Source: Georgenia sp. TF02-10
Lineage (GTDB): Bacteria; Actinomycetota; Actinomycetes; Actinomycetales; Actinomycetaceae
NCBI RefSeq assembly: GCF_022759505.1
Contig: NZ_CP094289.1
Span: forward strand, 1,364,001 to 1,428,000
Direction of reading: 5' to 3'
Length of the DNA: 64,000 nt
The notes under the pieces are model-generated. The model saw only the letters and a program-made list of their open reading frames with translations, did no database searches and was not told the DNA's origin. Made by a program: the position numbers and the translations under genes. Position 1 is the stretch's first letter. Each line of letters starts with the position of its first letter. Of the stretch, positions 45,951 to 47,708 are shown one piece after another.

Positions 45951-46538
45951 TCAGATGTAGATCGCCGGGTCGGCGTAGGGGTCCGGGGCCGGCTGGCGGG
46001 GCGCGGGCCGGGGCCGGGCGGGCACGCCCACGGCGACGGCGCCCGGCGGGATGTCCTTGACCACCACGGCGTTGGCCCCGACCTTCGCGTCGGCGCCGAT
46101 GCTGACCGGGCCGAGGACCTTGGCGCCGGCGCCGATGACGGCGCGGTCGCCGACCGTCGGGTGCCGCTTCCCGCGGCTCATCGACACCCCGCCCAGGGTG
46201 GTGCCGTGGAACAGCACGACGTCCTCGCCCACCTCGGCGGTCTCCCCGATGACCACCCCCATGCCGTGGTCGATGAACAGCCGCCGGCCCAGCACCGCGC
46301 CCGGGTGGATCTCGATCCCGGTCAGCGCCCGGCCCAGCTGGGAGAGCAGCCGGGCGGGCAGCTTCAGCAGCGGGTGGGCGTGCCACATCCGGTGCGCGAG
46401 CCGGTGGATCCACAGGGCGTGCACCCCGGGGTACCCCAGCGCCACCTCCAGCAGGCTGCGCGCCGCCGGGTCGCGGCGGCGCGCAGCGCGCAGGTCCTCC
46501 AGCAGCAGCTGCCGGAAGGGCACCGGGGAGTTGTGCAC
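45951..46538 (-). CDS. cysE: Serine O-acetyltransferase
   Basis: A 195-residue CysE that makes O-acetylserine for cysteine synthesis. An N-terminal helical part precedes the left-handed hexapeptide helix ([40 protein letters not shown]). Catalytic His-Asp residues lie in [14 protein letters not shown] and LFHGTTLGG. The protein ends PYADPAIYI; a C-terminal Ile is what inserts into the CysK active site in cysteine synthase complexes. Start GTG 46538 is one base after the cysK stop, so it is the second gene of the cysK operon. Confidence 0.94.
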
Positions 46539-46539
46539 G

Positions 46540-47475
46540 TCAGTCGACCAGGCCCTCGAACAGCACCGTGGAGAGGTAGCGCTCGCCGAAGTCGGGCAGC
46601 ACGACGACGATCGTCTGGCCCGCGCTCTCGGGCCGGTTGGCCACGTTGACCGCCGCGGCGAGGGCGGTGCCGGACGAGATCCCGACGAGCAGGCCCTCCT
46701 CGGTGGCCGCCCGGCGGGCGAAGCGCACCGAGGTCTCGACGTCGACGTCGAGCACCTCGTCGTAGACGGCGGTGTCCAGCACGTCCGGCACGAAGTTCGC
46801 CCCGAGGCCCTGGATCTTGTGCGGCCCCGGCTGCCCGCCGGTCAGGATCGGGGACTCGGCCGGCTCCACCGCGACCATCCGCACGCCGGGCTTGCGCTCC
46901 TTCAGGACCTGGCCGACGCCGGTGATGGTGCCGCCGGTGCCGATCCCGGAGACGACGGTGTCGACGGTGCCGTCGGTGTCCGCCCAGATCTCCTCGGCGG
47001 TGGTGCGCCGGTGGATCTCCGGGTTGGCCGGGTTGGCGAACTGCCGGGCCAGGACGGCGCCGGGCCGCTCGGCGGCGATCGCCTCGGCCCGGGCGACGGC
47101 GCCCTTCATGCCTTCCGCCGCGGGGGTGAGGACGAGCTCGGCGCCGAACGCCCGGAGCAGGGCGCGGCGCTCCTTGCTCATCGACTCGGGCATGGCCAGC
47201 ACGACCTGGTACCCGCGGGCCGCGCCCACCATGGCCAGCGCGATGCCGGTGTTGCCCGAGGTCGCCTCGACGATGGTGCCGCCGGGCGGAAGCTCGCCCG
47301 AGGCCGCGGCCGCGTCAACGATCGCGACGCCGATGCGGTCCTTGACCGAGTTGGCGGGGTTGTAGAACTCGAGCTTGGCGAGCACGGTCGCGTCCGCACC
47401 GTCGGTGATGCGGTTCAGCCGCACCAGCGGGGTGCGGCCGACGAGCGCGGTGACGTCCTGGTAGATGGTGGCCAT
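46540..47475 (-). CDS. cysK: Cysteine synthase A
   Basis: A 311-residue PLP-dependent O-acetylserine sulfhydrylase. The PLP lysine is in [11 protein letters not shown], the substrate loop is [14 protein letters not shown], and the phosphate-binding loop is [15 protein letters not shown]. It joins sulfide to O-acetylserine made by CysE next door. ATG 47475 ([20 protein letters not shown]) has GGAAGGA upstream; an in-frame extension upstream is not conserved. A cysteine-containing leader ORF and hairpin precede the gene and probably regulate it. Confidence 0.95.
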
Positions 47476-47561
47476 GGTGGTCCTTCCGTTCGGGGGGAGC
47501 GGCACGACGGCGCCGTGCCAGGGCCGGTGGTCGGCCGGGGAGTGGTCGGCGGGCGGGAACC

Positions 47562-47606
47562 AGAGCGCCAGGCGTGCGGCAGGCGCACCCTTGAGCCGGG
47601 CGCTCT
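47562..47606 (-). promoter_or_regulatory. Hairpin at the stop codon of the cysK leader ORF
   Basis: AGAGCGCC (47,606-47,599, minus strand) begins within the UAG stop of the leader ORF and pairs perfectly with GGCGCTCT (47,569-47,562). Inner complementary segments GGTGCG and CGCACGCC extend the fold. A ribosome on the leader ORF would cover its 5' arm, so leader translation can decide whether it forms. Confidence 0.55.
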
Positions 47607-47664
47607 ACCGACAGGAACGGCAAGCGGGCAGCGCACGGGGGCCAGCGGCGAGCGAGCAGCCCAT
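47605..47664 (-). CDS. Putative cysteine-containing leader peptide of the cysK operon
   Basis: A 19-codon ORF, MGCSLAAGPRALPACRSCR, with three Cys codons, two of them near the end (ACRSC). A good ribosome site (GGAAGGA, 7-8 bases before the ATG) is present. It lies 130 bases before cysK. Cys-rich leader ORFs that make downstream sulfur genes respond to cysteine supply are known in mycobacteria. Here the terminal Cys codons lie directly before a hairpin, as expected if ribosome slowing at Cys codons changes folding. Function is inferred and untested; the peptide does not have a run of consecutive Cys codons. Confidence 0.55.
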   Translation of the reverse strand: MGCSLAAGPRALPACRSCR

Positions 47665-47702
47665 GCGGCGTCCTTCCCGGCGTGCGGCTTGAAACCTCAA
47701 CA

Positions 47703-47708
47703 ACCCTA
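47703..47708 (-). promoter_or_regulatory. Possible -10 element of the cysK leader transcript
   Basis: TAGGGT on the minus strand would start transcription near 47,696, about 32 bases before the leader ORF ATG. No convincing -35 hexamer is seen. Weak prediction. Confidence 0.3.

Follow-up and report, generated by a model that had tools for sequence, protein, structure and literature searches.

Organization of the cysK-cysE upstream region

The window, a stretch of 64,000 nt from the 4.09 Mb genome of Georgenia sp. TF02-10 (contig NZ_CP094289.1, positions 1,364,001 to 1,428,000; 75% GC), carries a cysK-cysE operon in which cysE begins 1 nt past the stop codon of cysK (junction TGACGTG). The operon is preceded by a short leader ORF, a hairpin and a C-rich spacer (Table 1). 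The original prediction had described a 19-codon ORF with a ribosome site, three Cys codons of which two fall within the last five, and a position about 130 bases upstream of the cysteine operon. Each of these points was confirmed, the distance from the leader stop to the cysK ATG being 129 nt. The leader begins ATG GGC TGC TCG CTC GCC GCT GGC CCC CGT GCG and continues CTG CCC GCT TGC CGT TCC TGT CGG TAG, with Cys at codons 3 (TGC), 15 (TGC) and 18 (TGT); just two C-terminal Cys codons remain in this copy.

Table 1. Features of the cysK-cysE upstream region of Georgenia sp. TF02-10 (window coordinates)
Feature	Position	Strand	Remarks
Candidate -10, TAGGGT	47708-47703	minus	Part of feature 47688..47708; conserved in Georgenia-type relatives
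Conserved TTGAGGTTTCAAG after candidate -10	47700-47688	minus	
Leader Shine-Dalgarno, GGAAGGA	47671..47677	minus	From sequence; relatives also have SD-led starts
Leader ORF, MGCSLAAGPRALPACRSCR	47605..47664	minus	ATG 47664 to TAG 47605; from sequence and comparison
Control Cys codons 15 and 18 (UGU)	47622-47620; 47613-47611	minus	
UGU-CNN-UAG core	47605..47613	minus	Last Cys codon, one C-initial codon, stop
Hairpin	47563..47605	minus	5' arm GAGCGCC, 3' arm GGCGCUC, inner helix GUGCG/CGCAC
C-rich, G-poor spacer, hairpin to cysK SD	47488..47562	minus	53% C, 27% G; candidate Rho-loading region
cysK Shine-Dalgarno, GGAAGGA	47487-47481	minus	
cysK, O-acetylserine sulfhydrylase	46540..47475	minus	PALP domain, 3.7e-74; proposed first controlled gene
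cysE, serine O-acetyltransferase	45951..46538	minus	Hexapep; hexapeptide transferase

Two or more Cys codons among the last five are expected by chance in 0.1% (coding background) or 0.5% (random bases) of cases. In the window, 2 of the 68 SD-preceded ORFs of 10–40 amino acids have this property, the leader included, and a second Cys-ended small ORF is present elsewhere. The 5' arm of the hairpin had been predicted to begin inside the stop codon, and the first paired base is indeed the G of UAG, without a gap: GAGCGCC C GGC(UCAAGG)GUGCG...CGCAC GCC U GGCGCUC. Its energy of -25.7 kcal/mol corresponds to z = -1.50 against dinucleotide shuffles, 12/200 (6%) of which were equally stable, and the stability of the hairpin is not significant by itself. 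Within the window alone the ORF and hairpin are weak and barely above chance; their significance derives from conservation in relatives, as judged by sequence comparison.

Upstream of the leader, TAGGGT is the probable -10 of a promoter that would start the transcript ahead of the ORF. TAGGGT or TAGTGT together with GATTGAGGYTTCAAG is kept among Georgenia-type relatives. In the Georgenia group the candidate promoter and, after it, TTGAGGYTTCAAG precede the leader, which should therefore be part of the transcript. TTGAGGYTTCAAG forms a TTGA..TCAA palindrome right after TAGGGT, is found also in L002, L066 and L111-L117 (all of the Georgenia group), and could be an operator or the initial transcribed sequence.

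Conservation of the leader ORF

A set of 128 cysK loci was fetched by means of the cysK protein only, and the leaders were therefore not selected for. SD-led ORFs of 10–40 codons with at least two Cys among the last eight codons were found upstream of cysK in 49 of these loci, which are mutually related and do not represent independent events. The reverse strand gave two, and 20 dinucleotide shuffles of the 128 loci gave 1.45±1.4 leaders (maximum 5). In this set, which was not selected by codon, TGT serves as the last Cys codon of 48/49 leaders, against a background of 11/221 Cys codons in the genes of the window (5%) and 37/142 of the other leader Cys codons (26%). A single codon separates this last Cys codon from the stop in 46/49, and the stop is TAG in 45/49 leaders as compared with 11/56 window genes. 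TGTC and TAG are invariant in two alignments, A1 and A2, of loci found by cysK.

Ninety-six loci were chosen by the pattern TGTCNNTAG[AG][AG]CG; the codon between UGU and the stop is C-initial in them and encodes R, L, Q or P, though with TGT and C already in the pattern it is A1 and A2 that provide the proper evidence. With the pattern codon excluded, the upstream TGY triplets number 253 in the leader frame versus 70 and 19 in the others. The leaders end in SCRCR, PCRCCSCL or CCCLCR in Georgenia, in CCRCL in Cellulomonas, GCCCL in Demequina and CCCCR in Bowdeniella. Identical leader peptides occur in Georgenia subflava (L066) and in L120, a member of one of the sets of closest relatives compared.

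Alignment across relatives had been proposed as a check of the prediction. Conservation or covariation was seen for the ORF, for the Cys codons at its C-terminal end, for the stop and for the stem, while the Cys at codon 3 was not conserved; the peptide apart from the C-terminal cysteines, and the hairpin loops, drift. The non-consecutive cysteines, which had been pointed out as a difference from the mycobacterial examples, turned out not to be an oddity: the number of Cys per leader ranges from 1 to 9 with variable spacing and runs of up to CCCC, three copies (L003, L032 and L123) have the last UGU as their sole Cys codon, and what is fixed is this UGU together with UAG. The choice of UGU for the last Cys codon is puzzling, as about 95% of the cysteines of these genomes are encoded by UGC.

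The stop-codon-anchored hairpin

The relatives share a hairpin of consensus GAGCGYY...RRCGCUC with compensatory changes. The basal helix is 100% paired across a set of 18 Georgenia- and Actinomycetaceae-type sequences, with double changes in 4/9 of its pairs. For the structure as a whole, pairing reaches 95.9%, compared with 28–55% in slid controls, and the covariation score lies above those of all 500 shuffles. An independent set of 23 sequences, mostly of Cellulomonas and Demequina type and with loops quite unlike those of the first set, has a basal helix that is 96.1% paired and three double-changed pairs. A 7-bp partner of the 5' arm lies downstream in 87/96 loci, as compared with 7% of shuffles.

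In the inner hairpin (47600-47569, minus strand), the conservation of GUGCG...CGCAUGCC extends from Georgenia to the largest genus of the family, which we take to be Actinomyces. This sequence conservation exceeds what pairing alone needs.

Distribution of the element

A covariance model was built from the set of 18 sequences. It scored the window copy at 64.8 bits, the next match in the genome reaching 20 bits, and no second copy was found. Among 213 genomes of the family 102 were positive, representing 16/36 genera and including most species of the putative Actinomyces; each had one copy, with a weak extra one in a single genome. The element lies shortly before cysK in the correct orientation in 32/32 genomes with known cysK coordinates and in 30/30 fetched loci (61 genomes, one that is shared between the two being counted once). 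A sequence pattern was present in 62/213 family genomes versus none with the reversed control, and in 44/396 genomes of the order versus four. In the rest of the class it was at noise: apart from the window it matched twice, and the reversed controls gave about as many hits.

The element was not matched in roughly half of the family, whole genera among it (e.g. G174-G207), and several of these genomes have cysK. Gordonia zhenghanii (L032) possesses a UGUC..UAG hairpin 130 nt before cysK with a leader of a single Cys codon, which suggests horizontal transfer or an older origin. In eight Freshwater/Nanopelagicales-type loci (L074, L075, L084, L088, L097, L108, L109 and L110) there is a different Cys leader, ending in FTRRRVIDFGRANSCGCC before the stop. 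It is situated 57–91 nt before cysK without a stop-anchored hairpin and is weakly Ms5788A-like (E 0.009), the only type of leader for which such a resemblance was noted. No SD-led Cys leader precedes the PAPS reductase gene of the Georgenia genome.

Searches of Rfam 15 at the gathering score and at E<=10 left the element unmatched, returning only tRNAs and chance matches, and no published report of it was found in the literature searched.

Spacer and alternative structures

The spacer between hairpin and cysK is C-rich and G-poor. The excess of C over G averages +0.227 in 48 high-GC carriers (48/48 positive) and +0.064 upstream of cysK in 46 loci that lack the element (p = 4e-12). This comparison is confounded by phylogeny, in which carriers and non-carriers differ. 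There is no clear signal in the carriers of lowest GC. The composition of the spacer suggests Rho.

Over the 96 loci the complementarity of neither arm to upstream or downstream sequence exceeds that of shuffles, giving no indication of an antiterminator or a second exclusive structure. Two specific candidates were discarded on this ground: the Georgenia leader codons ACG CTC as antiterminator for GAGCG, and a downstream partner for the 3' arm. Both the antiterminator and the U-tract of a trp-type terminator/antiterminator pair are wanting in the sequences compared.

Proposed mechanism

A leader ORF rich in codons for the product of the pathway lies directly upstream of the operon, a covarying RNA structure that a stalled ribosome could block adjoins its control codons, and a C-rich, G-poor stretch, apparently unstructured, precedes the first gene as in Rho-dependent attenuators. 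Taken together these features make it very probable that the cysK-cysE operon is controlled by attenuation, mediated by a ribosome at cysteine codons. From them we infer ribosome stalling, the sign of the regulation, the termination step, the role of Rho and the response to cysteine.

Transcription would begin upstream of the leader, and a ribosome would load on the leader SD. With charged tRNA-Cys in short supply, this ribosome would wait at the C-terminal Cys codons, chiefly at the last UGU, six nt before the stop. A ribosome with a codon in its A site reaches about 12–15 nt beyond it. Given this reach and the fixed distance from UGU CNN UAG to the hairpin, the footprint of a starved ribosome would, on geometric grounds, cover the stop and the 5' arm GAGCGCC and keep the hairpin open, and the polymerase would enter cysK. 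The constant spacing between the last Cys and the hairpin fits a switch of the kind originally inferred, in which hairpin formation would depend on where the ribosome stands among the Cys codons. With ample cysteine the ribosome would reach UAG and depart, the hairpin would close and expression of cysK-cysE would drop. Most likely this drop would result from termination assisted by Rho on the naked, C-rich spacer, for which the hairpin would serve as a pause or terminator element. The stalled ribosome would cover the hairpin arm but not the spacer, and the proposed footprint leaves the blocking of Rho unexplained.

Alternative explanations

Alternatively, termination might need no Rho: the hairpin itself would be an intrinsic terminator without a U-tract, whose formation a ribosome at the Cys codons would allow or block. 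A stable GC-rich stem starting from the stop codon in nearly all carriers would suit such a terminator, as would a stalled footprint covering the 5' arm. However, no U-tract follows the hairpin: the first 10 nt after the stem average less than one T and 4.6 C, and even the low-GC carriers (~50% GC) have no consistent U-run there, which makes this reading rather unlikely. Translational attenuation, known from the erm leaders and also proposed for those of mycobacteria, is unlikely; here the hairpin or its freed 3' arm would govern access to the ribosome site of cysK. The spacer, merely 87–331 nt long across the loci, would permit this, and a paper that cites Canestrari 2020 (PMC13236596) presents the mycobacterial system as one of translation attenuation. 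Against it, the stalling of a ribosome is predicted to shift the unpaired probability of the cysK SD and start from 0.51 (hairpin present) to 0.54 (difference 0.03±0.09, 96 loci), and downstream complementarity to the 3' arm does not exceed that of shuffles. As the predicted access to the cysK start hardly changes, SD sequestration was rejected on the basis of these folding predictions.

A Cys-rich nascent peptide could arrest the ribosome at UAG in the manner of TnaC, with a metabolite as the signal and not the charging of tRNA-Cys sensed by codons. The recurrent Cys-[RL]-stop end and its fixed position relative to the stop would be expected of such a peptide, but the rest of the sequence and the number (1 to 9) and spacing of cysteines vary. 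The last residue changes between R, L, Q and P while the first C of its codon is invariant in the alignments, which argues that nucleotides and not residues are constrained and renders peptide arrest very improbable. That a functionless ORF and hairpin arose by chance in GC-rich DNA could be argued from the modest z-score in the window and from the second Cys-ended small ORF, yet is scarcely credible for an element whose conservation spans 16 genera of the family as well as further families of the order, and which stands before cysK wherever checked; at most the window's own copy could have lost its function. Ribosome-mediated attenuation at the Cys codons is the reading we prefer.

Comparison with known systems

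Leaders containing Cys codons have been predicted before cys and cbs genes of Mycobacterium, Propionibacterium acnes and Bifidobacterium longum (Seliverstov et al. 2005, PMC1262725). In that study Rho termination was suspected for the mycobacterial cys leaders, and the Mycobacterium regions were without a conserved hairpin able to act as a terminator. Mycobacterial Cys leaders were later found via ribosome profiling (Shell 2015, PMC4633059), and a response to cysteine is attributed to Canestrari 2020 in two papers citing it (PMC13236596 and PMC9094748), the former referring to attenuation in M. smegmatis. Actinobacterial Cys leaders are accordingly already known, and by its mode of action the Georgenia element would be one of them; it is the stop-anchored hairpin and the invariant UGU-CNN-UAG, as recognized from the alignments, that are new.

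The Georgenia leader resembles the mycobacterial Ms5788A and Ms4527A leaders in being a short ORF of an actinobacterium with Cys codons near its end, before cysteine or sulfur genes, and ribosome stalling under cysteine shortage has been proposed for the mycobacterial polycysteine leaders as well. Those start leaderless, whereas the Georgenia leader has an SD, GGAAGGA, and a probable 5' UTR. It is matched by neither NCBIfam NF042933 nor NF042936 (0 families at E<=10), and it differs further in the hairpin starting in the stop codon, the invariant UGU-CNN-UAG and the target, cysK-cysE. With the leaders of Seliverstov et al. (2005; PMC1262725) it has in common runs of Cys codons near the stop, the absence of a U-tract terminator and a suspected involvement of Rho; unlike their Mycobacterium regions, the Georgenia-type element contains a conserved, covarying hairpin.

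The classical trp, his and leu attenuators likewise combine control codons for the product in a leader ORF with an adjacent RNA hairpin, but here neither an antiterminator partner nor a U-tract was found, and control codon, stop and hairpin fall within 9 nt. The Rho-dependent tna operon of E. coli (TnaC) is similar in its leader ORF, stop-proximal stall (proposed for the present element) and downstream C-rich Rho region; it differs in that no conserved arrest peptide is seen here and that a hairpin stands between the stop and the C-rich region.

Quite possibly, though we advance it with reserve, the element represents a distinct and unnamed class of attenuator found mainly in Actinomycetaceae-, Cellulomonas- and Demequina-type bacteria, an antiterminator-free two-state switch in which a parked ribosome would plug the hairpin. 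Such a switch would consist of a wobble-read UGU fixed six nt before UAG and of just one hairpin, which starts in the stop codon. Further Cys codons would be dispensable, as some copies keep the last UGU only.

Because the 2005 comparison found no conserved hairpin, the switch itself had stayed unexplained. The present element is compact, single-copy and covarying, and in over 100 genomes the distance between codon and hairpin is fixed. It makes the mechanism testable on a single codon, stop and stem, and the covariance model could serve to annotate a new RNA family.
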